Shown one piece after another: positions 5,492-33,820 of a stretch of 64,000 nucleotides of DNA. Below the pieces are notes generated by a model, which worked only from the letters and a program-made list of their open reading frames with translations, searched no databases and was not told the DNA's origin. Made by a program: the position numbers and the translations under genes. How positions within the stretch are numbered: the first letter of the stretch is position 1; each line of letters starts with the position of its first letter. Origin of the DNA: Effrenium voratum (Eukaryota > Sar > Dinophyceae > Suessiales > Symbiodiniaceae); the NCBI GenBank assembly GCA_963377175.1, contig CAUJNA010003502.1, forward strand, positions 368,985 through 432,984. The letters run 5' to 3'.

Positions 5492-5493
<2 letters not shown>

Positions 5494-10347: not shown

Positions 10348-10382
10348 TGTGATTGGCCATGATTCATTTCATCATCAGGGAT

Positions 10383-10396: not shown

Positions 10397-10408
10397 TGAC
10401 CTGTGATG

Positions 10409-10758: not shown

Positions 10759-10785
10759 CGCTTGAGACCATCAACTACAAGCTCT

Positions 10786-13146
10786 ATGTCGACCCCACGA
10801 TCCCGGAGGAGCGTCGTGGATGAGGAGGCCATCCTACGTGGCCTCCGCTCAGGTGAGGACCTACCGGACTTCGACTATGAGGACTTCGAAGCAGGTTCGG
10901 CAGGTCAGGACCGCAGGGGTGAAGATCCCGGTAGGGACACACCCAGAAGCCGTGGCAGGTACACCGACGATGGAGATGATCGCATTTTCCGTCAGGCCAC
11001 TGATGATGAGCAGACACGAAGGGTTCGCTCCGATAGGAGCGGCTCTGAATCAGGTCACAGGCGTGGACAGTTCGACTTCATCAGCATGGCGATGAACATG
11101 GCCCGCCCTCATTCGGACGACACGGAGAACATGCCAACCCGACTCCCGAGATCTCTTGTTCAATCGCAGGTCTCGGATGAGTTTGAGGACAGGCTGCAGG
11201 GACCAGGGACTATGGTTTTGGCTCCGAGAGATATCTCGGGTCGATCCACTGGTTCTCAAAATCCAGGTCAGTTTGATGAGCGCGAGGAGCGGAAGTTCAC
11301 AGGTTTCGGATACGATGCTCTGTTGAAATCGACCGCAGGCTGGGGCAGTAGCTCAAAGCAGGGATCTGATGCCGATAGGCCCAACCCCAATACTGCCAAG
11401 TCTGAATTTTATGATGGTGAAGATTACAACTTTGCGGATGAGGAGGAGGACCATTCGCGCCGAAATGCGGGAAACCGTACTACTGCAAGGCCTAGCCCTG
11501 CCACTGCCAAGTTTGAGTTCGATGATGATGATGAATATGCCGCATTTGCGGATCGTCGTGATGAGGAAGAGAACCAATCACGCCGAAATGCTAGGATCCG
11601 TGCTGCTGCGAGGCCCAGGAGCCTCTCTCGTGGAGACGCTAGGGACCTTCGAGTTGACAGGGACGCCCGAAGCGAGAGAGAGAGAGCGAGGGATAGCCGG
11701 GAAGTTCTTCGAGGATTGGAGGCCATCCATCACAAGGAGGGGCCGGTAGGTCCCCCAGTGATCGGTGATGCCCCAAATGTTCCCCCCTTTCCCAACATTA
11801 CATTTGGAGGTTCGTTGAATCAGAGAGACGAGAACTCGAACCGGGTTACTGGTTCACCGAGAATCACTGAGCGGGCTGCCGATGCCGTTGGGGCAGGTGT
11901 GAAAGATGGTCGGCTAGCCGATGCGCTCGGAATCGAGGATCGTCCGTCGATCGCTAGCCCGTTAGGGCGAGATCCCAGTGACCTAGAAACACTAAGGTCT
12001 AGCAACGAGTTCACCCCTCAATGGGGATCGACCGCCAGGGAACGTAGTGCTTCTGCGAAGAGGCCGTCACCCCTGGTTGAGACCGATAGGTCAAAGGCGA
12101 GGAGGGCTAGCCCCTCACCAATGGGTTCAACTCCGCAGGATGAGGAGATGCCTGATCCTGCTGATGTTCACATTCACTCTACTCCCGAGTCTCGTGCATC
12201 CAACATTGATCCCCGATCTGGCGATAGCCGGAGAAGGGGATCTACCCCTAGCAGGCCGTCCAGGATAGGTGATAGTCCTGTAGGCGAACCCAGAAGGCTT
12301 GCTAAAGCTAGTGGGGCTCCTGAGAGGATCGAGATAGCGACTCCTCCAGCACGCAGGTCCCATTCTTCCGGTGAGTCAGGTGACGCCAGGGCAAAGGAGG
12401 TGTTTGATTTGCACATCCAGGAGATGCTCGAGAGGGGTGAGGTGTCTAGTTCAGTCGCGAAAGCGTTCCATATCTTTGCTGACCAAATCAGGTTACTGAA
12501 CGGTCAGGTGGGTTCCATGCGAAAGGAGTGGAGCGACGAGAATCAGCAGACGAAGGACAGGGTCAATCGTTTGGCGACTGAGGTTGCGACTCAATCTGAT
12601 GCCGGTAGGATGCGAATGATAGTTCAACGGTTTGCCAGCGAAGTTATTCCTGACAGCAAGGCCATTGTGAGGCAAGCCATCGATGAACAGGCTGAAGCCG
12701 TGGATCAGAGGATCAATCTGCTTTCCCACGAGGTTCATGAGTCTGTTAAGGACAGTGAAATCGCAACAGATCAGCTTCGTCAGATGATTCAAGAGAATCG
12801 TGAGGCCACCCGCAGGAGCCATGCTGCTTCCGAGGATGAGATCCTTAAGGACTTGGACAAGCTTGAGGGGCGGATGTTCTCGGTAGAGAAAACCGTTGGG
12901 ATGCGGACGCCAGCAGGTGAATGGAATTTGAATCCTGCTGCCCAACCGCCCGATAGGGCTACCAGCAGTGGGGCGAACGCGAGTTTCAGGGAGTTAAACC
13001 TGAAGCTCGAGAAGGTTCTTCTTGAACACGAGAAGTTTGCTAAGTGGGCCTCCGAATCTATTGGTGGACAAATCATTCTTGCTGATCGAATGTCGAGGCT
13101 GCAAAGTGGAAGGGGGTCCCAGGCGGTCGATAGACCATCAGGGTGA
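10786..13146 (+). CDS. ORF1: coiled-coil gag-like protein
   Basis: The first ATG of the open frame is at 10786 (the frame is open from 10762), giving about 786 residues. The N-terminal two thirds are charged and low in complexity, rich in Arg, Ser and Asp. A tandem duplication of about 37 residues with FADE...RRNA...ARP lies around 11395-11620. Residues from about 535 to 710 form a long coiled coil (GQVGSMRKEW to LEGRMFSVEKTVG). No known enzyme domain is present. Position as the first frame after the LTR argues for a structural role. The stop is eight bases beyond a motif hairpin (13125-13136), and the coiled-coil character continues in the +1 frame (ORF2), which has no early ATG. Confidence 0.75.
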   Translation: MSTPRSRRSVVDEEAILRGLRSGEDLPDFDYEDFEAGSAGQDRRGEDPGRDTPRSRGRYTDDGDDRIFRQATDDEQTRRVRSDRSGSESGHRRGQFDFISMAMNMARPHSDDTENMPTRLPRSLVQSQVSDEFEDRLQGPGTMVLAPRDISGRSTGSQNPGQFDEREERKFTGFGYDALLKSTAGWGSSSKQGSDADRPNPNTAKSEFYDGEDYNFADEEEDHSRRNAGNRTTARPSPATAKFEFDDDDEYAAFADRRDEEENQSRRNARIRAAARPRSLSRGDARDLRVDRDARSERERARDSREVLRGLEAIHHKEGPVGPPVIGDAPNVPPFPNITFGGSLNQRDENSNRVTGSPRITERAADAVGAGVKDGRLADALGIEDRPSIASPLGRDPSDLETLRSSNEFTPQWGSTARERSASAKRPSPLVETDRSKARRASPSPMGSTPQDEEMPDPADVHIHSTPESRASNIDPRSGDSRRRGSTPSRPSRIGDSPVGEPRRLAKASGAPERIEIATPPARRSHSSGESGDARAKEVFDLHIQEMLERGEVSSSVAKAFHIFADQIRLLNGQVGSMRKEWSDENQQTKDRVNRLATEVATQSDAGRMRMIVQRFASEVIPDSKAIVRQAIDEQAEAVDQRINLLSHEVHESVKDSEIATDQLRQMIQENREATRRSHAASEDEILKDLDKLEGRMFSVEKTVGMRTPAGEWNLNPAAQPPDRATSSGANASFRELNLKLEKVLLEHEKFAKWASESIGGQIILADRMSRLQSGRGSQAVDRPSG

Positions 13147-16100
13147 TTCCCCGCAGGACTGGCATGAGGCAATTGACGAGGTCAATCGGAAGGTCCAGGA
13201 CCTATCTCGCGGAGTTCAACGCCAACATCGGGATCACGACGATGTCATCGCGAGATTTGAGACCGTGAAGTCCCACGTTGAGCAGTATGAAGCGAGATCG
13301 GGAATTCTGAACCGGGTCCTTGATGACATCAGAAGGCAGATCCGCAATCTCCCTGCGAATAGTGATCAAGCGCGGTCTGCCGTTAGGCGTGAGCTCGATT
13401 CATTTCGGAACACGCTTGATGGCGCAATGCGGAGAATCAACACTGTCGAGAGTAACATGCGTACTCTTAATGGAATGAACAACAGAATCATGGCTCAGCT
13501 CTCTGAGATTGAAGGTCATGTTGATGAGGCCGCTGGCATCATTCAGGGTGTCCAGGATAATCAGATGAATCCTCAAGTACCCAGAGAAAGACGGAATGTT
13601 GGATACAATGCTTTTGCGGGGCAGGGACATAGAATCAGGTCTCCGACGCCCACTCCTGGGGAAGGTAACGGTCGGGGTACTGGCCTTCCGGTGAGACCGG
13701 GCGGGGGTGTTGATTTGACTGATCATGTTCTGCCAAATGTGCCCGGTAGGGTCGATCCTTCTCGTGCAGACAGGCATCCCATTCATCCCGATAGGGAGAG
13801 GGCTGACAGCAGAAGCAGAAGAGCTCGGGGACTGCCTGACAGGTCGCATTCCCCGCCAGGGCGAGTGAGGGCGCATTCACCGCCGGAGCGTGCGAGGGAT
13901 GGCCCCGGCGCGCGCGCAAGGGGGGACATTTCTGTTTCCCCCAACAGGGATGTGGGTAGAAATAGGAGCCCGAGGCCTGCTGCCGTCCCCGATAGGGGAT
14001 CTGAGGTCCGGAGTCGGCAATCGAGGGGGGAAAGGCCAATCCGCGATAGCGGGAGCATTTCTCCGAACCTGGAAAGGCCGCTCCGCGATAGCGGGAGCGT
14101 CTCTCCGAACCCAGACCGTCATCCAGGAGGTGGTAGGGGTACTAGGGCCCATACCGACATCCAGAGTCCCGGCGATAGCTGGAGGACTCCTGGGAGCAGA
14201 GCTCGTGCTGATATCCAGAGTCCCGGCGATAGCTGGAGGACCCCTGGAACTCCATCCGATCGTGGACGGGCCTCGGCACCGGCCGCAAGAGGAGCGCCTG
14301 GTACCGGTGGCCCAGGTGCGCCAAAGATCTGTGCCCTCGATGATCCGAGTGACCGCAGGCACCCGGACGCTGAATTCTCGTGTGTTACGTGCAATCGTGA
14401 GTTTTGCAGGCTTTGCCGGGGCGACGATGGGGACTGTTGCAATTGTCACTTCTTGAAGATGAAATGTTGGGCATGTCGTAAAAGTGCCCAGGAGGTCTCT
14501 ATGTATTCCTGCACGGAGTGTGGGAACCACATCTGTGAGGATCACAGTCATTTTGGCAGTGATGGCCTCGAGCGATGTGCGCGCTGTAATATTCGGCATG
14601 AACGCGCTGAAGCTGGACCGCCCCCTCCTCCTCCTCCTGGGGGAGGAGGTGGGCAAGGCGGACCATCCGGCCAAGGTGGGGGCGGAAGTGATGGTCATGG
14701 ACATGCTCCATTTCCACCACCAGGACCTGGGCATCCCGGCGGAGGCCAAGGTCCCGCTGGACCTCCTGGAGGCCCGAGTGGTGGGGCTCCTACCGGTGGA
14801 GCACCCGGGTTCTATGGTAGTGCTGCTGACTCTCATGGAGCTGAGAACAACCAGTGTGGTTCGAGTTTCTATGGTCCAGCCTTTGGGGGTGGTGTCTACA
14901 GTCAGGGCGTTGGTGCTGGCGTTAGTCAGCCCAATGTTGCTCCAGGCTACCCTGCAAGCATCGGGCATGCCAGTAATCCTGGAGCGGGTCAGTGCCATGG
15001 CTATGGCGCAAATGGTGCCGATAGGCCGGGGGATGGCGGTCTTCTTCCTGAAACAATCAGAGGAGACGAGGGCGAGACAGGTGCACCAAGTGTAACCTCA
15101 GGGTCCCCGTTACCGGCCCTCCTTTGGTCCCATGCGTTGGTTGTGGAATGAGGGCTTGTGAAATATGCTGTCCGTTACCGGCTAGGCTGTGTGAGAGCTG
15201 CAGGATCACGTCATGTACCCCGATAGGGGCCCTGATTTCAACCGTTGCTGATAAGGATCGGTACCATCACAAATGCAACACTATCACGTTGCCTCCTGAA
15301 CCGACAGCTGATAAGCTTCGGGAATGGATTTCCGAGGTTAAGGAGAGGGTCAGGAACGCTTTCAGTTTTGACTCTGATTACGCGTTAGCGTGGATTTCAG
15401 AGACTGAAAGGCTCGACTATGACGCTCTTGGAGGGCCCTGCAAGTATCCGGTCTTGGATTCCAACTTCACGAGTGCTATCAGGGATTGCATCAAGACGAG
15501 GGCCGTTAGGGATAAGATGAATCGCTTAACAGAGGCTGCTCAGAACATGACCCCTCCTCAGGGCATCAAGGGAAGGCAGATCTTGAAGCTCTTGCTGAAC
15601 CATCTGCAGACTGGAGTCGAGGACGACCAGACGTTCAAGATTGCCGAGTTGACCAGTCTCAAATGTCGACAGACAGGTCACTCCGATGACGAGGCTAGGC
15701 TCCGGAGTTATCTGAGCACCTGGGATAATCTCATCTATGGGATCAAGAGGAAGATCGATGATGGGGTGCTGCTAGCCGTGTTCATTGAGAACGTTCGCCA
15801 TCTACGCTGTATGCGGCCTGACATTGAGAGGTGGGATCGCGATGAGACCGTTAGGTCTTTTCCATGGCTCTATAAAGCTTGTCAGGACTGTGTTGAGCGA
15901 TGGCAGAAGCGACAGAACACGCTTCAGATGTATCAGACCTTTCATGAGCAGAGATCCCGGTCGGGCTCGCACTCTCGTGAAAGGGATCGGCATCCTGGAG
16001 CTCCTGGGGTTGTTCGAAGATACGACCCACTCGCGAGGAAAAGCGACCCGAGCCCTTCAAGGTCCGTTAGGTCCGGAAGGGATGGGAAACCCGACGGGAA

Positions 16101-16555
16101 GCCAAGATCATCTTCGCCCGGAAGAAGCAGTCAGAGAGACAGAGCTTCTCCTGGAAGAGGCAGTCAGAGGGACAAGCGCACACCGTCTCCCAAGTCGCCG
16201 AGAAGACAGTCCCCCGCTGGGCCTGCTGATCGGGTATGCTGGGAGTATACGAAGACTGGGAAGTGCCAGTATGGCCGGGAGTGCAGGTTCGAGCACGACA
16301 AGAGCCCAAGGAACCCTGCTGCACCCTCTACACCGAGGACTGGTGATAGGCCCGTTAGGGACAGGCCTATGTTCTTCGGATACTGCTACGACTGGATGTA
16401 TGGCAAGTGCACAGCTCAGCCGTGCAAGTACCTGCATCAGAAGCCACCACCAGGTACGAAGCCCATCACGCCTCGTTCTACTGCTGGTCCGGTTGTTGAG
16501 GATGAAGAGGGGGATACCCCTAGATCGCCTACGCCCAGTCCTCCCGATAGGGAGG
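10926..16555 (+). repeat. GDTA hairpin array, gag-like part
   Basis: Each member is a stem closed by C-G around a GATA, GTTA or GGTA loop. Approximate spans: 10926-10937, 11025-11042, 11223-11240, 11371-11380, 11739-11754, 11957-11968, 12081-12092, 12217-12232, 12602-12609, 12948-12959, 13125-13136, 13379-13388, 13741-13752, 13786-13797, 13985-14000, 14041-14052, 14082-14095, 14169-14182, 14223-14236, 15017-15026, 15218-15229, 15503-15510, 15844-15859, 16064-16071, 16351-16360, 16508-16521, 16540-16555. Those at 11223 and 16508 have A-T or G-C next to the loop. Stems vary: GACC...GGTC at 12081 is inverted to GGTC...GACC at 13125, GCTCC...GGAGC at 11027, CCTCCC...GGGAGG at 16540. A few (12602, 15503, 16064) have only 2 bp and are weak alone. 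Confidence 0.85.
13022..15151 (+). CDS. ORF2: coiled coil, SR/PD-rich linker, Cys-rich and Gly/Pro-rich tail
   Basis: Open in +1 relative to ORF1, with a 125-nt overlap and no ATG until 13474, so it is probably reached from ORF1 by frameshifting or is separated from it by an indel. It starts with coiled coil (HEAIDEVNRKVQDLSRGV onward), then an Arg/Ser/Pro/Asp linker with an exact 18-residue tandem repeat containing DIQSPGDSWRTPG (54-nt period, 14151-14258). Next comes a Cys-dense zinc-binding segment (CVTCNREFCRLC...CWACRKS...CTECGNHICEDH...CARC) of B-box or RING-like spacing, followed by a Gly/Pro tail. A gag accessory or nucleic-acid-binding role is inferred. Confidence 0.65.
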   Translation: MNTRSLLSGPPNLLVDKSFLLIECRGCKVEGGPRRSIDHQGDSPQDWHEAIDEVNRKVQDLSRGVQRQHRDHDDVIARFETVKSHVEQYEARSGILNRVLDDIRRQIRNLPANSDQARSAVRRELDSFRNTLDGAMRRINTVESNMRTLNGMNNRIMAQLSEIEGHVDEAAGIIQGVQDNQMNPQVPRERRNVGYNAFAGQGHRIRSPTPTPGEGNGRGTGLPVRPGGGVDLTDHVLPNVPGRVDPSRADRHPIHPDRERADSRSRRARGLPDRSHSPPGRVRAHSPPERARDGPGARARGDISVSPNRDVGRNRSPRPAAVPDRGSEVRSRQSRGERPIRDSGSISPNLERPLRDSGSVSPNPDRHPGGGRGTRAHTDIQSPGDSWRTPGSRARADIQSPGDSWRTPGTPSDRGRASAPAARGAPGTGGPGAPKICALDDPSDRRHPDAEFSCVTCNREFCRLCRGDDGDCCNCHFLKMKCWACRKSAQEVSMYSCTECGNHICEDHSHFGSDGLERCARCNIRHERAEAGPPPPPPPGGGGGQGGPSGQGGGGSDGHGHAPFPPPGPGHPGGGQGPAGPPGGPSGGAPTGGAPGFYGSAADSHGAENNQCGSSFYGPAFGGGVYSQGVGAGVSQPNVAPGYPASIGHASNPGAGQCHGYGANGADRPGDGGLLPETIRGDEGETGAPSVTSGSPLPALLWSHALVVE

Positions 16556-16599
16556 CGAGGCGTCTCGACAGCCCCGCTCAAGGATTGACGGATTTTTAG
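15082..16599 (+). CDS. ORF3: zinc ribbon, capsid-like domain and two CCCH zinc fingers
   Basis: The frame is open from 15052, and its CxxC pairs begin upstream of any ATG (CTKC near 15082, then CVGC, CEIC, CESC). It is thus most likely expressed as a -1 fusion with ORF2. A helical region from about 15300 to 15930, including LRSYLSTWDNLIYGIKRK, resembles copia gag/capsid. Near the C-terminus are two CCCH fingers: C-x8-C-x5-C-x3-H at about 16237-16296 and C-x7-C-x4-C-x3-H at about 16384-16437. CCCH fingers bind RNA and here replace the CCHC knuckle usual in gag. The stop follows GAT TTT TAG, a run allowing -1 slippage into ORF4. Confidence 0.8.
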   Translation, partial: CTKCNLRVPVTGPPLVPCVGCGMRACEICCPLPARLCESCRITSCTPIGALISTVADKDRYHHKCNTITLPPEPTADKLREWISEVKERVRNAFSFDSDYALAWISETERLDYDALGGPCKYPVLDSNFTSAIRDCIKTRAVRDKMNRLTEAAQNMTPPQGIKGRQILKLLLNHLQTGVEDDQTFKIAELTSLKCRQTGHSDDEARLRSYLSTWDNLIYGIKRKIDDGVLLAVFIENVRHLRCMRPDIERWDRDETVRSFPWLYKACQDCVERWQKRQNTLQMYQTFHEQRSRSGSHSRERDRHPGAPGVVRRYDPLARKSDPSPSRSVRSGRDGKPDGKPRSSSPGRSSQRDRASPGRGSQRDKRTPSPKSPRRQSPAGPADRVCWEYTKTGKCQYGRECRFEHDKSPRNPAAPSTPRTGDRPVRDRPMFFGYCYDWMYGKCTAQPCKYLHQKPPPGTKPITPRSTAGPVVEDEEGDTPRSPTPSPPDREARRLDSPAQGLTDF

Positions 16600-19538
16600 G
16601 CGGGGCGGGCCGTTACCCTGAGGCCAACCGTGTTGTTGTGGCGTGTCCAGCTATGTGGGCTGTTGCCCCAGCTACCGGTGGGTCTGCACCGGGTTGCCTC
16701 CCTCCTTGCGTTAGCAGTTGGGAGAAAAGCGAGCGAGGCGCGTTGTTCTTCTCCGGTACTACTGGTGGAGGTCCTAAATGGGACCAAGTCATTTGGAGAC
16801 GGACCGTTGACGCAAATGGGACCGTGATCGAGGATATCGGGGTGAACTTCGGTGATCGCCGAGAGTCCTTGTTCAGGAGACTCCCTAGGCGAAGTGATAC
16901 CAAGACGACTTTTTGGTACTGCGATGATGCGGAGGTTGTGCTGTCCTGGAGGAACAAGTACTTCCCGAAGGGTCCCGATAGGGAACCTCTGGGAGTCCAG
17001 ATCCCCGATCTCCCTGATGTGTTTGTTGTCTCAATTGAGAATGACAATACGGGCAGAGTCGTGAATCGCTGTCGAGAGGCTGGATACGGCCATCCCAATG
17101 CGATCAAGTTCCCTTCTCGCAAGAAAATTGCTAGGGAGGTTCAAAGTGCTCTGATAAGAGCTGCGGCTGTTCACGCCCAAGTGCTCTTAGACAACGACGA
17201 AGACATCGACACCAACCCTGGAGATGTGCGGGGACATCGAGTTGTTCGAAAGCCGAAATACACACAGAAGGTTGCTGCACCCGTTGGTTACGGCGGGGTG
17301 AGGTGGCTGGTAGATACTGGTTGCCCAATGGATCTGGTAGGTCTTGGTGATTTGAAAGGACCCGATAGGGCCCTAATTGCCAAAGGCGGACACACTCACG
17401 CGCTGCACACCGCCAACGGGGCGACTCGCACCGCTGGTCGTGTTGATGCTGACGTCGGCAACCTGGACGAGGTGATTGAGGCACACGTCCTTGAGTCTAC
17501 TCCATCCATCATATCCGTTGGAAAGCGCTGTATGGACATGGGGTACTCGTTTGTGTGGACTGCAGGTTGCAAGCCTACTCTCACATGTCCTTCGGGCCGC
17601 ACGGTGGCATTGGATGTCGTCAATAACGTGCCGTACCTTCCTCATGGTGACACTCAGTTCGTTTCTCCCACTCTCGATGATGCTGAACCACTTCCTGCTA
17701 TGCCTGCCCCCGGCGCGGCATATCAAGGGCTCGAAGTCAGCGAGGTTCCGCCATGTAAGTCTGAACTAATGGTCAAGAGTGAACTACAGGACACCTGGCG
17801 CACGGAGCGATCCGGCCATGTTGTGAAGGAGCACCGACTTCCGCGAAAGGCGAAGTTTGTGCCGACTGGTGATGATTGTCCCGTTAGGGTCGATCAATTG
17901 GACAACTACAGGAAAACAATCGTTCACCGAAATGGGGTTACCCATGAGGTGCTGGTCGACAATCTGTGGGAGTTGTCCGAAAGAGATCAGCATGCGATAG
18001 CAGCTGATGTTCCTTGGACGGGTGAGACATGGTTTCAGGTCAAGTGCGAGACCGTTGCTCTTCCCGGAAAGGCAGAACAGGGGGGTGAGGGCGATCGCCA
18101 CTCACCACCTTTTCCTGGCTCAGGGGAAGGGGACGATGGTGACATTGTCGAGATAAACTTTCTCTCCGGGCTACGCACAGAGGCTGAGTGGAGGGCGGAT
18201 GCTAAGACGCTCCGTCATATGCTCACGCATCTCCCGAAGAACCCCTATTGCCCGCACTGTCAGCGAGCGAAAATGGAGAATGTCAAGCTTCGCCGCAAAG
18301 GTGGTGCTGCCGCGCATGACGTGGTGAGCTTCGGGGACCTAACCACCGCTGACACAATGGTGTTGAGAGGACTGAAGGATCGAGGCTTTCATGGCGAGGC
18401 AGACGCGATAGTGTTCTATGACCTCGCTACTGATTACCTCGAGGCTTTCCCTGTGCAATCCAGATCCCGTAGCAATACGCTGGAGGCATTTCGCAGGTTT
18501 GCAGGGGGGCAAACTCTGAAGTTAGTGTACAGCGACCAGGCCCCAGAGCTGAAGAATGCTGTCACTACACTTGGTGCATTGCACCGACTTTCCACGCCGG
18601 GCATGCCCAAGACCAACGGCCTGATCGAGAATAAGGTCAAGCTTGTCCTCCATGGGGCACGTGTGCTCCTGCGTCAAGCCGGATTTGAACCTCGATGGTG
18701 GCCATTTGCCGTTAGGCATTTCTCCATGGCAAGGAATATTGAAAATCGCGGTGAGGGATCACCGTGGATGCGACGTCACGGTGACGGGAACTTCAGCGGA
18801 GTCATTCTGCCGTTTGGTTGTCTGGTCGACTTCTACCCCATTGCTCCCAAAATTCGCAGGGATAGAAAGGGGGGAGTTCAAAACGCCCAAAACGACTTCA
18901 GACACGCTGGAAAGGTCGACTCAGAGGACGTTAATGAGGGAGGAGACCACTGGATCGCAAATGAAGACGAGAAGGTTCTCACTCGCGTCCACGTTGAAGC
19001 GCGAACCGAGCTCTTTATCCCGATAGGGACGAGCTGTCCAGTCAAGATCAAAGACCTTGGCAGGAGGCGGAGCACAGTCCTCAACTATCTGGACGGATCG
19101 ACCGAATTCGTTGTTGACGAAAACTGGCTCCGTGGAGGTAACCACGAATGGACTGGAGAAACTCATTTCGACTGTGATTTTGATCAGATCGATGAGGATG
19201 AGGCCGAGATCTATGAGAACGAGGAGTACGAACCCGAGTGCAACGACGAACCGGACTTTGTTCCCATTGATGAGGTAGAGGTTGAAGAGACAAGTGTCAC
19301 CACTGCCCTGCCCGCCGAGAAGAAAGAGCGGGACTTCATCAAGATAGAGGAAGATCCAAAGTTCGCCCCATCGTCCAAGCCAGGCCTATTTTTGGGCTAT
19401 CGGTTAGAACCAGGGGGCCTGTGGAAGGGCGACTATCTCGTTGCTGATCTCGAGCACATCCAAAGGGGTCTCAGGAAGCCAAGTATACACCAGGTCAAGC
19501 GCATCTGGAAGAACCCTGAGGAGCCCTGGGGGCGATAG
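16600..19538 (+). CDS. ORF4: retropepsin-like protease and DDE integrase
   Basis: The frame is open through the ORF3 stop; the first ATG is at 16653, but entry by -1 frameshift is equally plausible. The protease motif WLVDTGCPMDLVG has Asp-Thr-Gly at 17313-17321. Integrase shows the HHCC finger (HMLTH...CPHC, about 18214-18264) and a DDE core: Asp at 18336, Asp in YSDQAPEL at 18534 and Glu in NGLIENK at 18627. The C-terminus GLFLGYRLEPGG...GDYLVADL is typical of dinoflagellate copia polyproteins. Two similar modules (FVPTGDDCPVRV...WTGETWF and FIPIGTSCPVKI...WTGETHF) flank the integrase. The TAG stop at 19536 lies inside a motif hairpin (19528-19543). Confidence 0.93.
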
Positions 19539-24352: not shown

Positions 24353-25090
24353 ATGGCGGCGGCTGGCGGAATGGGCATGGGGCGCTGCATGGCGACGCCT
24401 CCGCGGCCGTCCTGGGACCTGGCGATGGGGCTGGGCATGGAGAAGCCGAAGGCCGTGGCCCACTGTTTGCTTGCGGGATACCGCGAGTGGACAGTTAAGG
24501 GGTTTAAGGGACGGGATCCGAAGCTCACCACGATTGATCCAGATATGGAGAGGGCTGGTCAGCTGATTGAGGATGACAGTGCCGCGAAGTTCGATGAACT
24601 GGTTGGCAGGGTATCCCACATCAGTAAGGACAAGCTCGACAAATCCCTCCTGGCGTGGCCGGAACACGAAAAGTTGCTTCGGTACCGTGCGGTCAGGACT
24701 GCTGCGATAGTGGCGGAAATGAAACTCCGGAGTGTGGAGGTCACAGAGATGAACGCCGTGCACTTGGCGGCCATCTTGTGCGCTGCGGTTCCAACGGACC
24801 CTGCTTTCTTGCTTCCTTATCACGCTGTCTTTGCGTTCGAGGAGAGCATCGAGATTGGCGGGAATGCGTTACCCGTGGACAGCAGTACGGAGCCAGCCGC
24901 TCAACCATGCGGCGGGATGTGGGTAGGTGACCCGAAATCCTGGCCGGAATGGAAGACGGTTCATCAGCAGACGGCCTTGGTAAAGACGGTCGCTGATCAG
25001 GCCGAGGTGGCATTCGCGCATCACCCTCTGTATAGCGGAGATGATTTCGGTGATGCAGAGCACCATTTCCATGCACTCCGTGCTGGATGA
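24353..25090 (+). CDS. ORF7: unknown protein, 245 residues
   Basis: Starts with ATG in a Met/Ala/Gly-rich leader, then reads as a compact, probably helical protein (DDSAAKFDELVGRVSHISKD, AAIVAEMKLRSVEVTEM, LAAILCAAVPTDPAFLLPYH). I recognise no family. The stop overlaps the next ATG as ATGA at 25087-25090, a termination-reinitiation arrangement, or else marks a -1 change within one protein. It lies downstream of RNase H, where copia elements normally have nothing. Confidence 0.6.
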   Translation: MAAAGGMGMGRCMATPPRPSWDLAMGLGMEKPKAVAHCLLAGYREWTVKGFKGRDPKLTTIDPDMERAGQLIEDDSAAKFDELVGRVSHISKDKLDKSLLAWPEHEKLLRYRAVRTAAIVAEMKLRSVEVTEMNAVHLAAILCAAVPTDPAFLLPYHAVFAFEESIEIGGNALPVDSSTEPAAQPCGGMWVGDPKSWPEWKTVHQQTALVKTVADQAEVAFAHHPLYSGDDFGDAEHHFHALRAG

Positions 25091-25404
25091 GCGAGAGGCC
25101 GAACGCGTTGTTCACTCCTCCGGAGGTGGTCGTCGATGCGATGATGCTGACCGAGGGAAGGAACAGGGAGGAAATCGTTAGGTGTTCCTCGGGACGGCGG
25201 CTATCATCGGTCCCGTCGGTCAAGAAGTTCGCAACGGCCGATAGGCCAGGAATGCGGGGATACCTGCACGCAATGGGACAAATGTCAGGTGTGGTCACTT
25301 CCTTGGGTGATGCCATCAACTGGGACAATAGACAGGTGTTGAGGATCTCACCTAAGAACCAGGCGAGCACCACTGACATTGAGAGAAGGGTGGGCATTCT
25401 TTGA
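25087..25404 (+). CDS. ORF7b: short bridging frame, 105 residues
   Basis: Begins at the ATGA overlap with ORF7 and runs in the -1 frame to 25404, overlapping ORF8 by 26 nt. It reads MSERPNALFTPPEVVVDAMM and later PGMRGYLHAMGQMSGVV; no family is recognised. It contains two motif hairpins: 25168-25190, one of the longest stems, and 25236-25247. It may be the middle piece of a protein that continues from ORF7 into ORF8. Confidence 0.5.
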   Translation: MSERPNALFTPPEVVVDAMMLTEGRNREEIVRCSSGRRLSSVPSVKKFATADRPGMRGYLHAMGQMSGVVTSLGDAINWDNRQVLRISPKNQASTTDIERRVGIL

Positions 25405-27136: not shown

Positions 27137-30100
27137 CTAGGACTACATGGCCTGGCGCTACCACGTTGTTCATCAGGGACAACATTTTCAAGCATCTGAA
27201 GGAGGATACTTCTTCGAAGATGGGTGATGGCGGCTCAATGTCTGAGTCTGAGGATGTCAACATGACGGATGGCGCTCAGGGAGGGCCGCCGATAGGCGTA
27301 ACCCCTGGTGGGCAATCGTCCGACGCAGGTCAACGTGCGGAAGGTCATACCGCTGGCCCGAAAGCCCCTCCTAAGGCGTTAGTCACGAAGGAGATGTTGA
27401 CATCGGTGAGACCGAAGTCTCCGCCGAACCCACCTCGGAGTCCGAGGGTTTCTTCCCCTCAGGTCACTGCGACCGAAGTTGGAAATCGATGGTCATCGAA
27501 TCTTCGGACGCCCAGAGCGACGATCGAGGAGGAGAACACAGGTGGATCCAATGAGGTCGATGATCTCCTGCCCGATAGGGAAGGGATCAATCTCCCTACG
27601 GATACCTTCAATGATGGTGAGGGTCCGACTGAGGCCGAGCAACAAGAGTTCGCCGGGGACGTTGAGATGGAGCCAGAGAAGGAGGCCGACGTTCCTGCTG
27701 AAGGCGAGGGAGAGACTCCCGATAGGGAGGCTGAGGTACCTCAGGACGCTGCAGCCACAACCGAACCATCCGTTAAACCGTCTGCGGCGAAGCGAGCAGT
27801 GTCGCCCGGTAGGGAAGGACGTAGGGATCAGGATCCTGTTGACACCCAGAAGAAGGATGAGACGCCGAATCCGGCTGGTCCAGGTGTGCCGGTTTCCTAC
27901 GCTCCCAAGTACACGGACGACGATGGGGATTTGCGGGATACCGCAGCGACCCCAAAGGCGGCTTCGACCCAGGAGTCACGAGGGGGCATGCACAATTATG
28001 CGAACACGCCCTACCCGGAGCACCCGGGGGAAGCGCCCGAGCTGAAGCCTGCGGAGGTTCGGCATCATCGTGAGCATAGTTCCTACATGTCATCTAGGGG
28101 CTCACGGACTTCGGCGAGGCCGGCGGAGAACCGGACAAACAGGAGGTTCATCGTTCAGCATATCCTGGCAAGGGAGGCTGGTGAGCCCTTCATCTATGCC
28201 GTGATCCGGAACAAGGCAATCACTCGAGAGCGGGTTACCGCCGAGGAGTGGAAGAAGGCAAGCGAGACTAGCCACATAGTGTTCCCTAATCGCGATAGCG
28301 AGTGGAGTGCAGTGTTGGATCGAGCTGTGCATAATGACTACATGTACGGAGCATTGGATGCTTCCCGAGCAGCTGGGAGGATCGATCAGGAGTACATCAA
28401 TCCTCGAGATCGGAAGTCTACGCCATGGGCTGATCAACAATGGAACATGAAGAAGGTGGCGGCTGAGGCTGCCCACATCCCGTTAGGGATGAGGCAGAAC
28501 ATTCAGGCGAAGTACCATCATGGACGAGCACCCCCGGGGGACTGGGCAGATATGCCCGATCGGGATGATTACATGGTTCGTGGTGTCGTTAGTGACCCGA
28601 ACCGCAGGGCGTATGACTGTCTCCGAGCGCCAGGAGTAAGGGCAACCTTGCTGAACGCGCAGACGGGCCAGTGCATTCCTTTGGACGATCCGACGTGGGT
28701 GCCGGAGATTGCATCATCACATCTGCTGGTAGGGACGATCACCACGATCGCATCGCACGTGGATTGCGCCCTTGGGCGCGCATGGCGTATGCCTATGTTC
28801 CACCCTCAGCTGATGGCGGCGACTGCAATGCTGGAGAAGTTGCAGAAGTACTTCAACGCGCTGAACGAAGCGGTACTAGGCAAGCGATTGGGTACTGCGC
28901 CTTTCAGCATGATAGCCGGTCACCTTGCTCCGGAGTTGCGGACTATCCCGACGAGGGAACAGATGTCCGACACGCTGGCGCAGTCAGCAGCTGAAATCAT
29001 GCTGTCCCATGTGTCGGCGCTATCTCATTCAGGGTCAACTTCCGATAGGAAGGAGATCCTTGATAGGGATGGCAACCCGTTCGGGAAGTCATGGTTTGAA
29101 GACGATCCTGAAGGGGTCACATGGCCTGGACACCACATGGCTGGGGGTGTCGCCATTCCTCTGAAGCCGAAGACGAAGATCGTATGGGGAAAGCGACCGC
29201 AAGTGGATGACGAGGGTGATGTGGATCCAGAGGCGAGCTCTTCTGGGCAACCGAGGACCGAGCCGGTCCCCGATAGGGGTGCCGGGTCAGGAAAGGATGA
29301 TGATGTGACACTTCCTGACATTGGGAAACTTTCCATGACGGAGGAGAAGAAAGATGACATGGAGGTGGATCAGGAAGGCTCCAAGAAGGGTCCCGCTGGA
29401 ACGGGCGAGCCCAAGCCTCGGACTGAGGCTGGGAAGACAGACCCGAGCGAAATTACCAACTTCAAAGGCGCTACCTTTGAGGAGTACCGCAAGACTGCTC
29501 CAGACTATGTGTACAGCGGGGAGGGAGATGATCGAGGGATCCTTCCCAAGAACACTCCGATCAACATGGAGAAGTTGTTGCCTGCTGAGGCAGCGCTCTT
29601 GATTCCCAGGGCCGTGGCCACACAAGAGGAGGCTGAGGAGGCTGAGGGGGCCGCAATGGAGGCCATCCGCGGGGATTTCAGGCTTCCTGACGTTGGTCAG
29701 GCGGACAGGGAGAAGGTCGACCCCCACACAGTGACGAGTGAAGACTTGGCTGCGTCGATAGACGCGCTGACCAAGAGGCTGAGTGACGTGCCTGGATGGT
29801 CGGGAAATTTGCTCGACCCTGTAAAGTCTGCCGAACTGGTTGCGGCAAGGTGGGGCGGAAAGGCGAGCTATGACAAGCCTGAAGCTCCTCTTACTGAAGC
29901 AGGAATGAAGAGTGCGTCACTGGAGGATCGAGCCTACGCCTTATCGCAGCTGAATGAGATGGTGAACTTCCACAAGAAGCACCTGTGCTCTGGGAGGGGG
30001 GCGCCAATGGTAAGTGCATCTGCTCCCAGTGGGCCCTTTGCACCTGATCAGGTTGACGCAAGCAGGAATTTCCGCCCGAATGTGGCGGCAAGCAAGATGA

Positions 30101-33100
30101 CGTACAACCTCGTGATCCTGGATGGAAGGAAGGACTACCTCGCCGATAGGCAGGAGATCAATCCAGAATTGCGGGAAACTGGGGTCGTGCCTGATGAGGC
30201 TGTCACTTGCCAGATCGTGGTCCCATCGAAGACGAGATTGAGCGAGTACGTTCCGAACTACGAGGAGACCGCGAGCACTGTCGCAGGACGAGAGGCGGCT
30301 CAGGAGTTGATGAAGCTGCTCTCGTGTGACGTTGAAGGTTTGATGATCAACTCGAAAAGAGTCTCGGAGTTATTCGAGGAGAACGTACTGAAGGAAACTG
30401 GACGAGAGACTGGAAACTGGGTGAGTAGTGACCAGGCCATCTGGTTCCTGAGAGAGGTAACGGGTATGGAGAACGCCGAGATGTCATGGAAGTTCTTTAT
30501 CCCGACGATCAAAGCTTTCCCGGTAGGGCAGGTTGAGGCAATGCTCATGATCATGTATGATGGGAATGGTGTCCTCCTCAGGGAGTGCACTAGATTGGTG
30601 GCCGTTAGGTACACGCGGATCGGTCGAGACATGAGTTTCAGCGCCGTTAGGCAAAGATACACTCAGGAGGATGCACCTGGCGGATCTCTGATGTACGAGA
30701 TGCACTGGAATGAACTCCCTATGGTGGGGTACGTCATCATGAAGTTCTTAGACTTCAGGAAGGCAGTCCAACTCCAGAAGATGAGGCGCAACGGGAAGGC
30801 CATGATCGAGATATTGATCACGAGGCCCGATGCGTACGAGACCATTGGGGATGGAAGGCTGGATGAGGGCCTGATTCCAATTGTGGAGACTATGGCGCCG
30901 AATGCCGAGGTGTCGCCGTCGTGGTACGTTAGGGACAGGCTGCGGAACTACTCAGGTAGGTACGTGGTGGTCATGGCGGACCTTCGGGTGCACCGGTCGT
31001 TGGTTGGACCTGTGTTTCTGACAAGGAGAAAGACCCTTGCTGTTCGAAATGAGATCCACATGAGTGCGTGGAAGGCTGCGTACATGTTCGATGATTACAC
31101 GATAGTGTACCATCGTGCCTGGGACTATGGTGACCTCACCCCCGATAGGGGGGAGCACAAGCGGTCACGTGAGGAAGTCAGGTTGAACGTGACTACCACC
31201 TTCTGTTTGAGGTGCGCGGAGATGACGCCTAATGGGATGCATTTGTGCCCCGGGCGCGCACTCCCGGTGTTCTACCCGAACTTCATCCCCAACGCGGACG
31301 AAGATGACTTCGACCGGTGTGGCATCATCCCGGACTGGGTGAAGAGTATGAGGCAATTTAAGCCCAAGAGGATCCCAACCGAGGTGGTCGGAGTTATCAA
31401 GAGGAATTTGATTTCCTATTCGATGGCGTCTGACCTGAGGATGACGGTGCAGAGCGGCATCAGACTGCCCCCTTATCTTGGTGAGGACAAGGGAGGAGTT
31501 GATGCGGCGTGGGATGAGCTGGCGAAGGTGCTATTTCAGTTCTCCTATGTGTCTGGGATTTCGGCCTCGGACGCGTTCGTGGAGAAGTGGGTGGCGAAGC
31601 ACCTCATCAAGACCAATCAAGTCGATAGATTTGATTCGGTCACTGAGTATTTCCGGGCAAATCCGATTCATGCGGCCCAATGGGGTAGGCGTATGACGAC
31701 TTCCGTTAGGAAGTTCGCCCGCCACGACACTTATCTGTCTTTCTATATCCCAATGGCGTACGTGATTGGTGCTGCGGCTGGTCATCTGACTCCTTTGTAT
31801 CCGACCCACAGGAAGGATGCAGACATACTGGCTAGCCACGTCTTGATGACGGATCTCAGGAACTACATGGTCTCGGCAACAGGATACGACGAGAAAAAGA
31901 GATTGAGGGAGGCGGTAGCCAAAGTGCAGAAGGCAATCAGTGCTGGGCAATCAGAGCCTCCTGCTCCCTTCCGTGATCCGTTCGTCTACGTTAGTGACGA
32001 AAGGGTGAGGACGATTCTTGATGGTCGTCAGCCGGAGCCGCTGGATGTGAACGTTGAAGAGCTCCAGTCGGTGCATCATGCTGCGCAGGGTCCTGGTCCG
32101 AAGCAGGAGCCGATCGTCAAGGGCGGGAAAGGAAAAGGAAAGAAAGGAGAGAAGGGCGGTAAGGGCGGTAGTCCTTCCGGCCCACCACCAAAGTCAGGTG
32201 AAGCGCCAGAGAAAGGGTCTGGTAAGGGCGATAGTCCTTCTGTCCCACAGGCAAAAGCGAAAGCTGATGCAGGGCCGGCTCCGATGGAGGTTGATACCCC
32301 TGTGGCTCAACCAAAGAAGACTTGGGTCGCGATAGCGGTTGAAGGAGCCCGGCCAAGTGCAAAGGCAAAGATGACTCCGGTCCCAAAGGCTGAGCCGAAG
32401 GGAAGGGCTGCCTCAGTGACTGAGGCGAAGAGTGCTTCAGCCCCGAAGGCTGAGCCTAAGGGGACGAAGCAGGCCGACCCGAAAGTTGAAGTCAAGAAGG
32501 AGAAGGTAGGCGGTGCTGATGCTCCCGGCGGTAGTCGAGGCTCAGCTGAAGGGCAGAAGAGAGAAAGGAAGTCCCGTTGGGATCCTGACGAGACTGTGAA
32601 GGAGTCGACGAAGCGGGAGGCATCGACAAGGCCTGATGACGTTGACAGCAGACCAGGTGCGGCAGCAAGAGAGGCTAGTGCGGATGATCTTCACTCTGCA
32701 CTTGGTAGGTCTTCGGCAAAGGACGCGGTAGCACCTCTGACGGCCTCCAAGGCAATGGCAAAGAAGCCTGAAAGTGGGGAGGTCAGGTTGCAGTCGGCTG
32801 AACGAATTGCGGCGAGTCCGGTAGAAGGTCACTTTCTAGCGCTGCCTGAGAGTTCGGTGGTGGACGCTCTCCTGTCGGTTTCTACCAATAGAGTGCTGAA
32901 CAGGCAGGTCAGGGAGTTCATCACAAATGGTGAAGAAGCTTCAGCACTGGAGGCTCTCAATCAGATCGTGACGAACTCTCGTTCTGGGAGGAGACGCAGG
33001 GACTCGGACGTCTCCCGCACTCCATCTCGGAGGTCCGTTAGGACCGTGGACTCCAGGGATTCCCGAGAATCGAGAAGGCGCAGATACCGTCCGCGGCGCG

Positions 33101-33270
33101 AGGATGATCGTGACCGGAGGAGGGACGATGCTCGAGATCGTCATGATGATGACTCACTCGATCGGGAGCGGGATCGAAGGCGAGATGATCGCAGGAGATC
33201 CGAGAGGGATCGTGATAGAGACCGTGCGCGGGGCGGACGTGACCGGAGGAGACGTGACGATAGCCGATAG
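27094..33270 (+). CDS. ORF9: 2058-residue orphan protein with RD/RS-rich tail
   Basis: A real ATG at 27094 opens the longest frame of the window. The first 350 residues are acidic and low-complexity; the middle (about 28140-31950) is well-mixed globular sequence with no recognised enzyme; a C-x2-C...H-x3-C cluster (CLRCAEMTPNGMHLC) lies near 31205-31250. From about 32090 it becomes Lys/Gly/Pro-rich, and it ends in an Arg-Asp/Arg-Ser repeat tail (about 33000-33270) like SR splicing factors. The TAG stop at 33268 is part of a motif hairpin (33253-33281). An RNA-binding, structural or nuclear role is inferred from composition only. An envelope role is not supported: no signal peptide or membrane segment is seen. 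Confidence 0.75.
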   Translation: MDCGAGLSWDLFSLTRTTWPGATTLFIRDNIFKHLKEDTSSKMGDGGSMSESEDVNMTDGAQGGPPIGVTPGGQSSDAGQRAEGHTAGPKAPPKALVTKEMLTSVRPKSPPNPPRSPRVSSPQVTATEVGNRWSSNLRTPRATIEEENTGGSNEVDDLLPDREGINLPTDTFNDGEGPTEAEQQEFAGDVEMEPEKEADVPAEGEGETPDREAEVPQDAAATTEPSVKPSAAKRAVSPGREGRRDQDPVDTQKKDETPNPAGPGVPVSYAPKYTDDDGDLRDTAATPKAASTQESRGGMHNYANTPYPEHPGEAPELKPAEVRHHREHSSYMSSRGSRTSARPAENRTNRRFIVQHILAREAGEPFIYAVIRNKAITRERVTAEEWKKASETSHIVFPNRDSEWSAVLDRAVHNDYMYGALDASRAAGRIDQEYINPRDRKSTPWADQQWNMKKVAAEAAHIPLGMRQNIQAKYHHGRAPPGDWADMPDRDDYMVRGVVSDPNRRAYDCLRAPGVRATLLNAQTGQCIPLDDPTWVPEIASSHLLVGTITTIASHVDCALGRAWRMPMFHPQLMAATAMLEKLQKYFNALNEAVLGKRLGTAPFSMIAGHLAPELRTIPTREQMSDTLAQSAAEIMLSHVSALSHSGSTSDRKEILDRDGNPFGKSWFEDDPEGVTWPGHHMAGGVAIPLKPKTKIVWGKRPQVDDEGDVDPEASSSGQPRTEPVPDRGAGSGKDDDVTLPDIGKLSMTEEKKDDMEVDQEGSKKGPAGTGEPKPRTEAGKTDPSEITNFKGATFEEYRKTAPDYVYSGEGDDRGILPKNTPINMEKLLPAEAALLIPRAVATQEEAEEAEGAAMEAIRGDFRLPDVGQADREKVDPHTVTSEDLAASIDALTKRLSDVPGWSGNLLDPVKSAELVAARWGGKASYDKPEAPLTEAGMKSASLEDRAYALSQLNEMVNFHKKHLCSGRGAPMVSASAPSGPFAPDQVDASRNFRPNVAASKMTYNLVILDGRKDYLADRQEINPELRETGVVPDEAVTCQIVVPSKTRLSEYVPNYEETASTVAGREAAQELMKLLSCDVEGLMINSKRVSELFEENVLKETGRETGNWVSSDQAIWFLREVTGMENAEMSWKFFIPTIKAFPVGQVEAMLMIMYDGNGVLLRECTRLVAVRYTRIGRDMSFSAVRQRYTQEDAPGGSLMYEMHWNELPMVGYVIMKFLDFRKAVQLQKMRRNGKAMIEILITRPDAYETIGDGRLDEGLIPIVETMAPNAEVSPSWYVRDRLRNYSGRYVVVMADLRVHRSLVGPVFLTRRKTLAVRNEIHMSAWKAAYMFDDYTIVYHRAWDYGDLTPDRGEHKRSREEVRLNVTTTFCLRCAEMTPNGMHLCPGRALPVFYPNFIPNADEDDFDRCGIIPDWVKSMRQFKPKRIPTEVVGVIKRNLISYSMASDLRMTVQSGIRLPPYLGEDKGGVDAAWDELAKVLFQFSYVSGISASDAFVEKWVAKHLIKTNQVDRFDSVTEYFRANPIHAAQWGRRMTTSVRKFARHDTYLSFYIPMAYVIGAAAGHLTPLYPTHRKDADILASHVLMTDLRNYMVSATGYDEKKRLREAVAKVQKAISAGQSEPPAPFRDPFVYVSDERVRTILDGRQPEPLDVNVEELQSVHHAAQGPGPKQEPIVKGGKGKGKKGEKGGKGGSPSGPPPKSGEAPEKGSGKGDSPSVPQAKAKADAGPAPMEVDTPVAQPKKTWVAIAVEGARPSAKAKMTPVPKAEPKGRAASVTEAKSASAPKAEPKGTKQADPKVEVKKEKVGGADAPGGSRGSAEGQKRERKSRWDPDETVKESTKREASTRPDDVDSRPGAAAREASADDLHSALGRSSAKDAVAPLTASKAMAKKPESGEVRLQSAERIAASPVEGHFLALPESSVVDALLSVSTNRVLNRQVREFITNGEEASALEALNQIVTNSRSGRRRRDSDVSRTPSRRSVRTVDSRDSRESRRRRYRPRREDDRDRRRDDARDRHDDDSLDRERDRRRDDRRRSERDRDRDRARGGRDRRRRDDSR

Positions 33271-33820
33271 GCTGGGTCACGAGGATTGCGGCCGATAGGC
33301 TTGCGTCCGTTCTCCGATGGTTGGCGCGGTGTGGAGATGGTGATGCTCCTCCCGAACCGCTGAGGCGCGGAGATCATGTCTCTCCCGTACCGCTGCTGGG
33401 CTGCTGGTCGTGTTCATCAGGAAGCAGTGTGAGTGAGAGGGAAAGCAAGCTAATGGGGGGTTACTCCCGGGTTTGCGGAATTCAAGCATTTTTCAGGTAC
33501 GCATGGTCAGGAGTACCTCTTGCCGATAGGCGAGGGTACTATTGGACATACGTTATCTTTTATTTCATGGCTTCTGATAAGAATTAAACTTCTTGCATTG
33601 CTGATGCAAACAGTTGTGGCCTAGTGTCGTCACGTGGACTCTTCCACAAGGTGTGTTGGACAGCGTTACCCCGATTAATTCGGGGTGGTGGCGGGAATTT
33701 AATGCCCGGGATGTCGCGCAACTGCCTTTGTGGGTTTGCTCCACCGCTGACGGCGGTAGTGTCCAGCTGTTTGCGGACGCATGCGAGCAGTTAAATCCTA
33801 TCAGTAAATGGCACGCTCCA

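Follow-up and report, generated by a model that had tools for sequence, protein, structure and literature searches.

What would a retrotransposon do with the same small hairpin repeated about a hundred times along its RNA? The question is raised by a 64,000-nucleotide stretch of DNA from the dinoflagellate Effrenium voratum (assembly GCA_963377175.1, contig CAUJNA010003502.1, positions 368,985 to 432,984 of the forward strand), called the window below. A first-pass annotation, made from the letters alone, had described about 84 hairpins with a shared G(A/T/G)TA loop, a constant C-G closing pair and variable stems, dispersed from 10926 to 33767 through a giant retrotransposon, and had read them as selected RNA structure bound by a protein of the element. 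The giant element is indeed present, complete from one long terminal repeat (LTR) to the other (10348-34233, 23,886 bp), and most of that description was borne out. Here we ask how far the hairpins exceed chance, whether they are kept in relatives, and what might read them.

The hand count of the six-base cores had been about 50 CGATAG, 22 CGTTAG and 10 CGGTAG, close to the 52, 29 and 14 copies that we found on the + strand of 10926-33767. In the nine open reading frame (ORF) segments there are 87 cores, as compared to 16.0 ± 3.8 in 1000 synonymous-codon shuffles. Of these, 74 possess at least two further pairs (3.5 in the shuffles, maximum 9) and 34 at least four (0.7, maximum 4), so the codon-preserving check suggested with the original description came out clearly in its favor. 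Swapping flanks among the element's 97 cores lowered the share paired at two or more positions from the observed 85.6% to 21%. The antisense strand of 10926-33767 has 4, 1 and 2 copies of CGATAG, CGTTAG and CGGTAG, and in no copy do the flanks form as many as two Watson-Crick pairs. Beyond this interval no core copy has three or more Watson-Crick pairs on either strand, as had been claimed.

The constant C-G closing pair, however, did not hold. A closing pair and at least three further pairs were also found at GGATAC (12 of 19 sites), AGATAT (7 of 8) and GGTTAC (7 of 11). Because the closing pair varies, the class is a G[A/T/G]TA tetraloop on any stem, written GDTA below (GDUA in RNA), and the set is larger than the C-G cores. 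The sense strand of the element holds 271 GDTA tetramers, with a stem of at least three pairs at 129 and of at least four pairs at 99 (G-U counted), whereas 8.7 of the latter (maximum 19) were obtained with flanks swapped between sites. On the antisense strand a stem of four or more pairs was found at only 2 of 139 tetramers. Within the ORF segments there are 87 such hairpins versus 7.8 ± 2.7 (maximum 13) in 200 synonymous shuffles, and outside the element 7 of 154 tetramers have such a stem versus 3.9 swapped (maximum 12), which is no clear excess. The figure of about 84 therefore stands for the C-G class, in which 84 of 101 C-G[N]TA-G sites in 10000-35000 have at least two further pairs (G-U allowed; one site is GCTA and two are in the LTRs), but it falls short of the whole set of 99. 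Similarly, most hairpins lie within the interval first given, but the run extends from 10383 to 33899, with one hairpin in each LTR (Table 1).

The shared loop itself was confirmed. In a scan of all 256 tetraloops, only GATA (z 25.9), GTTA (z 15.2) and GGTA (z 5.2) were strong, followed by ACAT (z 3.6); GCTA has stems of four or more pairs at 2 of 45 sites versus 0.9 swapped. Scanning loop lengths of 3-9 in the element gave no other class of comparable strength. GNRA hairpins number 27 versus 19.1 shuffled, and the class is not GNRA, as its third loop position is T rather than a purine. Selection for stable loops or for hairpins in general was rejected, since neither GNRA nor UNCG is comparably enriched. 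The 64-kb window has no Rfam match at gathering score, and no tRNAs were found in it.

Over all 271 sites, unselected, pairing exceeded that with dealt partners by z values of 9.9, 10.8, 8.2, 6.3 and 4.6 at pairs 1-5, and by 0.7 to 1.6 at pairs 6-10. By this measure the stem is about five pairs long, and it is the loop together with such a stem that defines the class. A pairing map of the 97 CGDTAG sites showed weak off-diagonal signals (highest z 3.3), and therefore no constant bulge is evident. Adding G-U pairs raises the number of stems of at least four pairs from 60 to 99, while adding A-C pairs raises it from 60 to only 70; because G-U extends the stems far more than A-C, the folded molecule appears to be the sense RNA. 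Palindromes at the DNA level were excluded by this bias together with the strand asymmetry. Furthermore, in predicted folds of 124-nt contexts the probability of the closing pair is greater than 0.5 at 99 of 271 sites on the sense strand, at none of 139 on the antisense strand and at 2 of 154 outside the element. For the 99 hairpins with a stem of at least four pairs this probability has a median of 0.97 and is greater than 0.5 in 80%. One GATA hairpin (24462-24495) has an unbroken stem of at least 15 pairs (G-U allowed), far above all others.

The hairpins occupy all three codon phases as well as non-coding parts. Among ATA codons, 17 of 33 fall within the loops of hairpins with stems of at least three pairs, and among TTA codons 10 of 28. 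Between the LTRs, density ranges from 2.5 per kb in the dUTPase-reverse transcriptase region to 6.8 per kb in the 3' untranslated region (UTR), and the hairpins are spaced slightly more evenly than expected at random (coefficient of variation 0.82, P 0.027). A retroviral psi-type signal confined to the 5' leader was rejected, as 97 of the 99 hairpins lie inward of the two LTRs, starting at 10926 within the ORF1 frame. Two short tandem duplications in ORF2 (14029-14111 and 14144-14247) carry a GATA hairpin of their own in each copy; tandem duplication would be one way in which new hairpins arise.

We then compared the element with its relatives, which for DNA come, with a single exception (L001, below), from one assembly of 1.156 Gb in 3699 contigs. 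The reverse transcriptase ORF has matches at 96-100% protein identity at no fewer than 48 scored places of that assembly, from 7044 initial candidates. Four more distant copies (L040-L043) are 92-94% identical to the window in DNA and 95-98% among themselves, and contain 37-44 hairpins in 9.8 kb; the corresponding 9.6 kb of the window contains 35. Over the five copies there are 46 sites, of which 27 are shared by all five, 11 by four, 3 by three and 3 by two, and 2 are confined to one. At several of them the hairpin persists although its second loop base is A, G or T depending on the copy. In one copy (L042) a 318-bp stretch is inverted relative to window positions 22550-22867, at 98.4% identity.

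A protein 62% identical over ORF9 (P0001) led to a sister family. We refer to the window's element and its copies, including L048 and L049, as family A, and to L044-L047 as family B. The two are 57-61% identical in protein and 62-64% in DNA. Each family B locus (6.4-8.1 kb) has 27-30 sense hairpins and no antisense ones, with 2.1-2.6 expected from swapped flanks, and the longest open frame holds 16-22 hairpins versus 1.0-1.6 in synonymous shuffles. Exact coincidences between the families account for 22 of 42 alignable A sites and 22 of 37 B sites over the four loci, where 0.19 are expected, and a codon alignment gives 20 shared sites where 0.2 are expected. The comparison with related elements that the first-pass annotation had called for thus favored it, also as regards the stems: among the inner 88 pairs of the 22 shared sites, which were chosen for pairing in both families, both sides changed four times and always to another pair (0.4 expected, Fisher p 9e-5). 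A peptide-level count of hairpin-compatible sites in relatives (for P0001, 32 versus 23.5 ± 5.0 in only 6 shuffles) has weak power and was not relied on. Contig C2524 of G000 carries four family B copies, with similar matches on C3251, and family A is spread over many contigs (28 matches listed).

Family A and family B differ in the second base of the loop. Across L048, L049 and the window, loop usage is GATA 15-23, GTTA 8-10 and GGTA 4-8, whereas in family B it is GATA 1-3, GTTA 8-14 and GGTA 13-16. Family B loci do contain 11-18 GATA tetramers, mostly unpaired. When the 38 hairpins of L048 were read in L044 and L045 without selection, identity was 0.54-0.61 in the flanks and 0.68-0.83 in the stems; in the loops it was 0.76-0.78 at G, 0.35-0.36 at position 2, 0.67 at T and 0.61-0.62 at A. 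In the reverse direction, comparing the 28 L045 hairpins with L048 gave 0.71-0.93 in the stems and 0.82, 0.36, 0.86 and 0.79 along the loop. In unpaired GDTA tetramers, position 2 was kept at 0.75-0.81, and at 0.59 in the other direction. Of note, position 2 differs at 14 of the 20 codon-aligned shared sites, and 13 of these differences alter the amino acid (for example, D to G or V, I to V). The shuffles, the G-U bias, the conservation with loop switching and the few compensatory changes in relatives support the view that the hairpins are selected RNA structure in a giant retrotransposon, as had been proposed.

The hairpins are nearly missing from another set of relatives. The Gag protein P0156 is 37% identical to ORF3 and is matched in the same assembly at 96-98%. 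The loci of this family contain 0 or 1 sense GDTA hairpins per 5.6 kb (30 loci of 53 scored places), and the longest frames of L010 and L022 contain none, versus 0.7 and 0.5 in shuffles. A search of one copy (L010) for other enriched loops found none comparable, the best z being 4.3 among gapped tetraloop patterns versus 25 in the window. L001, a contig from a Kiritimatiellae bin, is a distant copia relative at 36% identity with no GDTA hairpins in 3 kb, and the viral contigs scanned held no relatives. The P0156 family and L001, almost without hairpins, show that the trait is not general among these elements. L001 and P0108, the latter filed under a named bacterium, are copia-type retroelement genes with a bacterial label, probably through eukaryotic contamination of metagenome bins.

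What, then, might read the hairpins? Our proposal, which we rate slightly above an even chance, is that the 99 hairpins are dispersed docking sites by which the element's own predicted Gag would select, condense and package a very long RNA. A protein would read the GDUA loop on a stem of about five pairs with any closing pair; it would be encoded by the element, and would be Gag rather than the large ORF7-9 protein; and the outcome would be packaged or condensed genomic RNA. An element-encoded reader is favored because families A and B prefer different loop bases and the third family has at most one hairpin per locus read, which is unlike what one common host reader would give. To this extent the earlier interpretation is partly upheld, the constant closing pair being the part that fell. 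ORF3 is a plausible candidate for the reader by its predicted capsid-like fold and CCCH fingers. Weighing against it, the P0156 family encodes a similarly built Gag although it nearly lacks the hairpins. Each family would keep its loop and reader matched, with the second loop base as a family-specific mark. Extending this, the RNAs of sister elements within one genome may be marked along their whole length by some hundred hairpins whose second loop base serves as a password. The Gag of each family would read its own version, and when the password changed, dozens of sites would have changed with it at the expense of codon choice and even of protein sequence; we give this extension a little less than an even chance. 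There is a real chance that such a family-specific loop code is something new.

The choice of Gag is open to challenge from within the element, as the large ORF7-9 protein could be the reader and could, for example, condense, protect or traffic the long RNA. Families A and B possess both the hairpins and this protein (in B, the ORF8-9 part), and a search with ORF9 residues 340-1750 (7990 candidates scored, shared five-residue words required) returned only two proteins, both belonging to these families, so that the P0156 family may lack ORF7-9. As ORF7, ORF8 and ORF9 have no significant domain match and the ORF9 alignment no match in the PDB, we consider this reader unlikely. The reader could also belong to the host, as an RNA-binding protein or as part of the machinery for RNA decay or silencing, which the element would tolerate or exploit. 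This has precedent in that many readers of hairpins with a fixed loop and variable stem are cellular, such as Smaug, Roquin and Rnt1. The lack of a clear hairpin excess outside the element speaks against it, as does the difference in loop base between two families of one assembly with a third nearly bare, although host paralogues could still fit; we regard a host reader as decidedly improbable.

The spread of hairpins across all coding regions would also suit a role in translation or reverse transcription (pausing, frameshifting, strand transfer or recombination hot spots) without any sequence-specific loop reader. Highly stable loops would serve as well for such a role, however, and they are not comparably enriched; moreover, C is rarely accepted at position 2, where the preferred base also depends on the family, and the loops are not self-complementary, so that kissing of like loops is not expected. 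We see very little likelihood in this explanation. That the set has no function, and was made by coding bias, duplication or quasi-palindrome mutation, draws on the two tandem duplications with their four hairpins, and is hardly credible in view of the synonymous shuffles, the occurrence in every codon phase and in the 3' UTR, the strand asymmetry, the unrelated flanks, and the conservation at 62-64% identity with loop differences that change amino acids.

Where packaging signals are degenerate, it is difficult to decide whether many of them, spread along a genome, guide coat assembly. The hairpins described here are numerous and uniform enough for statistics on the sequence alone to reveal them, and one assembly supplies an antisense control, a relative almost without hairpins and a sister family whose loop code is shifted. 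If Gag reads the hairpins, these elements would form a natural series for the co-evolution of a protein-RNA code, for the choice and packing of a 24-kb RNA, and for how the RNAs of related elements are kept apart.

The element itself is, by its sequence features, an LTR retrotransposon of the Ty1/copia type, on the evidence both of its LTRs and target-site duplications (TSDs, 5 bp on both sides) and of its RVT_2 and RNase H regions (Table 1). ORF4 has no Pfam match, and its protease and integrase motifs were recognized by eye alone. The RVT_2 match in ORF5 (E 1.2e-5, 25.5 bits) is under the Pfam cut-off of 31.6, and a 92% relative (P0003) carries PF07727. A dUTPase domain (E 5.6e-37) shares the open frame of 19408-22314 with the copia reverse transcriptase, to our knowledge an unusual cargo for a copia-type element. 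Among the 120 RNase H-region relatives listed, one (P0108) bears the name Ty1/Copia RNase HI, and a relative at 60% is from Symbiodinium sp. CCMP2592. In a relative 94% identical over the compared part (P0002), parts of ORF7, ORF8 and ORF9 form one protein, while the window copy is frame-broken. The sole domain listed for these three frames is YlxR in ORF8 (E 0.093, under the cut-off), and in the PDB sequence search ORF8 had one match at E 0.26. The start of ORF8 (25343-27133) resembles an ADP-ribosyltransferase by eye (HGTSQSSLWSILGG), with no support from the Pfam and PDB sequence searches. The sequence TTTGGCTCAAG, which we take to be the 3' end of the dinoflagellate trans-spliced leader, occurs in each LTR (10409-10419 and 33912-33922), its only two + strand places in the window, and nowhere reversed. 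A long CTA trinucleotide array is located left of the element at 5356-5497.

Table 1. Features of the element in window coordinates. Hairpin rows are the 99 predicted sense-strand GDTA hairpins with a stem of at least four pairs, G-U allowed.
Feature	Position	Strand	Remark
GGTA hairpin 5 bp, in 5' LTR	10383..10396	+	
GGTA hairpin 4 bp	10926..10937	+	
GATA hairpin 7 bp	11025..11042	+	
GATA hairpin 7 bp	11223..11240	+	
GGTA hairpin 6 bp	11739..11754	+	
GTTA hairpin 7 bp	11838..11855	+	
GTTA hairpin 4 bp	11957..11968	+	
GATA hairpin 4 bp	12081..12092	+	
GATA hairpin 6 bp	12217..12232	+	
GTTA hairpin 4 bp	12488..12499	+	
GATA hairpin 4 bp	12614..12625	+	
GGTA hairpin 5 bp	12877..12890	+	
GATA hairpin 4 bp	12948..12959	+	
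GATA hairpin 4 bp	13125..13136	+	
GTTA hairpin 4 bp	13378..13389	+	
GATA hairpin 5 bp	13597..13610	+	
GGTA hairpin 6 bp	13670..13685	+	
GGTA hairpin 4 bp	13741..13752	+	
GATA hairpin 4 bp	13786..13797	+	
GATA hairpin 6 bp	13985..14000	+	
GATA hairpin 5 bp	14040..14053	+	
GATA hairpin 5 bp	14082..14095	+	
GATA hairpin 5 bp	14169..14182	+	
GATA hairpin 5 bp	14223..14236	+	
GTTA hairpin 6 bp	14915..14930	+	
GATA hairpin 4 bp	15218..15229	+	
GATA hairpin 4 bp	15306..15317	+	
GTTA hairpin 6 bp	15378..15393	+	
GTTA hairpin 4 bp	15703..15714	+	
GTTA hairpin 6 bp	15844..15859	+	
GATA hairpin 5 bp	16508..16521	+	
GATA hairpin 6 bp	16540..16555	+	
GTTA hairpin 4 bp	16706..16717	+	
GATA hairpin 4 bp	16973..16984	+	
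GATA hairpin 5 bp	17078..17091	+	
GATA hairpin 5 bp	17148..17161	+	
GTTA hairpin 7 bp	17280..17297	+	
GTTA hairpin 5 bp	17932..17945	+	
GATA hairpin 5 bp	18402..18415	+	
GTTA hairpin 4 bp	18707..18718	+	
GATA hairpin 4 bp	19018..19029	+	
GATA hairpin 6 bp	19528..19543	+	
GATA hairpin 4 bp	19977..19988	+	
GATA hairpin 4 bp	20127..20138	+	
GATA hairpin 5 bp	20709..20722	+	
GATA hairpin 5 bp	21025..21038	+	
GATA hairpin 7 bp	21371..21388	+	
GATA hairpin 6 bp	22205..22220	+	
GTTA hairpin 6 bp	22328..22343	+	
GATA hairpin 7 bp	22412..22429	+	
GATA hairpin 5 bp	22783..22796	+	
GATA hairpin 5 bp	23588..23601	+	
GGTA hairpin 8 bp	23611..23630	+	
GATA hairpin 7 bp	23627..23644	+	
GATA hairpin 4 bp	23675..23686	+	
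GATA hairpin 6 bp	23988..24003	+	
GATA hairpin 5 bp	24146..24159	+	
GATA hairpin 5 bp	24248..24261	+	
GGTA hairpin 7 bp	24285..24302	+	
GATA hairpin, at least 15 bp	24462..24495	+	
GATA hairpin 4 bp	24538..24549	+	
GATA hairpin 7 bp	24699..24716	+	
GATA hairpin 4 bp	25236..25247	+	
GATA hairpin 6 bp	25253..25268	+	
GATA hairpin 5 bp	25904..25917	+	
GATA hairpin 5 bp	26215..26228	+	
GTTA hairpin 4 bp	26283..26294	+	
GGTA hairpin 6 bp	26353..26368	+	
GATA hairpin 5 bp	26428..26441	+	
GATA hairpin 5 bp	26658..26671	+	
GTTA hairpin 5 bp	26930..26943	+	
GATA hairpin 8 bp	27197..27216	+	
GATA hairpin 4 bp	27287..27298	+	
GATA hairpin 5 bp	27716..27729	+	
GATA hairpin 6 bp	27931..27946	+	
GTTA hairpin 4 bp	28230..28241	+	
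GATA hairpin 4 bp	28290..28301	+	
GTTA hairpin 6 bp	28476..28491	+	
GATA hairpin 6 bp	28543..28558	+	
GATA hairpin 5 bp	29039..29052	+	
GATA hairpin 4 bp	29268..29279	+	
GATA hairpin 6 bp	29751..29766	+	
GTTA hairpin 7 bp	30362..30379	+	
GATA hairpin 7 bp	30803..30820	+	
GATA hairpin 5 bp	31096..31109	+	
GATA hairpin 5 bp	31139..31152	+	
GATA hairpin 9 bp	31615..31636	+	
GTTA hairpin 7 bp	31698..31715	+	
GGTA hairpin 6 bp	32161..32176	+	
GATA hairpin 6 bp	32224..32239	+	
GATA hairpin 6 bp	32325..32340	+	
GGTA hairpin 4 bp	32526..32537	+	
GTTA hairpin 5 bp	33032..33045	+	
GATA hairpin 5 bp	33261..33274	+	
GATA hairpin 4 bp	33290..33301	+	
GTTA hairpin 6 bp	33454..33469	+	
GATA hairpin 8 bp	33517..33536	+	
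GATA hairpin 4 bp	33572..33583	+	
GGTA hairpin 5 bp, in 3' LTR	33886..33899	+	
TSD CAAAA, left	10343..10347		
5' LTR, 384 bp, TGTGATT...AATCACA	10348..10731	+	98.7% identical to 3' LTR
Candidate primer-binding site, GGTTATCAGCC...	10732..10755	+	by position directly after LTR
ORF1, gag-region protein, coiled-coil-like	10747..13143	+	gag assignment by position
ORF2, coiled coil and C-terminal Cys-rich part (RING-like by eye)	13004..15148	+	
ORF3, Gag: predicted capsid-like helical domain and two CCCH fingers	15052..16596	+	favored candidate hairpin reader
ORF4, protease (VDTG) and integrase-like	16551..19535	+	motifs recognized by eye; no Pfam match
ORF5, dUTPase and RVT_2 reverse transcriptase	19408..22314	+	
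ORF6, RNase H region	22266..24059	+	one relative named Ty1/Copia RNase HI
ORF7-9, large extra protein, frames broken in window copy	24350..33267	+	second candidate reader
3' LTR, 381 bp	33853..34233	+	ends as 5' LTR
TSD CAAAA, right	34234..34238		

A literature search, with most subscription-journal papers outside its coverage, found no earlier description of hairpins dispersed through a retrotransposon. In retroviruses the GACG loops are few and lie in the 5' leader. Hairpins with this fixed tetraloop are involved in retroviral RNA packaging (PMC516450), whereas here about 100 hairpins extend over the whole RNA. In work on Ty1 and Ty3 encapsidation, the Gag of Ty1, which shares the LTR retrotransposon type of our element, is believed to recognize its own RNA, and a region near the 5' end of Ty1, nt 237-380, has been implicated; the passages on this describe no dispersed hairpins with a constant loop, and the word hairpin is absent from the main text (PMC4974528). 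Hepatitis B virus is likewise reverse-transcribing and has multiple dispersed stem-loops with a loop motif, but it differs in the loop, RGAG, and in the capsid protein, its readers being core protein (PMC7612645). The coat-protein hairpins of MS2 have an apical loop (x)xYA and a bulged A on the 5' side, with one strong copy and many weaker ones proposed along the genome (PMC6281560); the short stem and a loop ending in pyrimidine-A are shared, as GDUA fits xxYA, while no constant bulge stands out at the 97 CGDTAG sites here.

Two features of dispersed packaging signals, many stem-loops with a shared loop and sites kept in relatives, are found in this element, and the fit of GDUA to the loop patterns of both MS2 and human parechovirus 1 is a likeness rather than a membership. 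The parechovirus is an RNA virus about a third of the element's length. Its dozens of stem-loops with a GxU loop are read by the coat protein, and packaging signals with a GxU loop were assigned to 71 of 73 candidate peaks; they were found by systematic evolution of ligands by exponential enrichment (SELEX), a simple search for a repeated motif being described as unable to find such sites (PMC5431903). Unlike in the parechovirus, the motif here is carried by an LTR retrotransposon, is visible by statistics alone and has a loop base that depends on the family. What the two share is a series of stem-loops along the genomic RNA with a short common loop motif, GxU there and GDUA here (PMC5431903).

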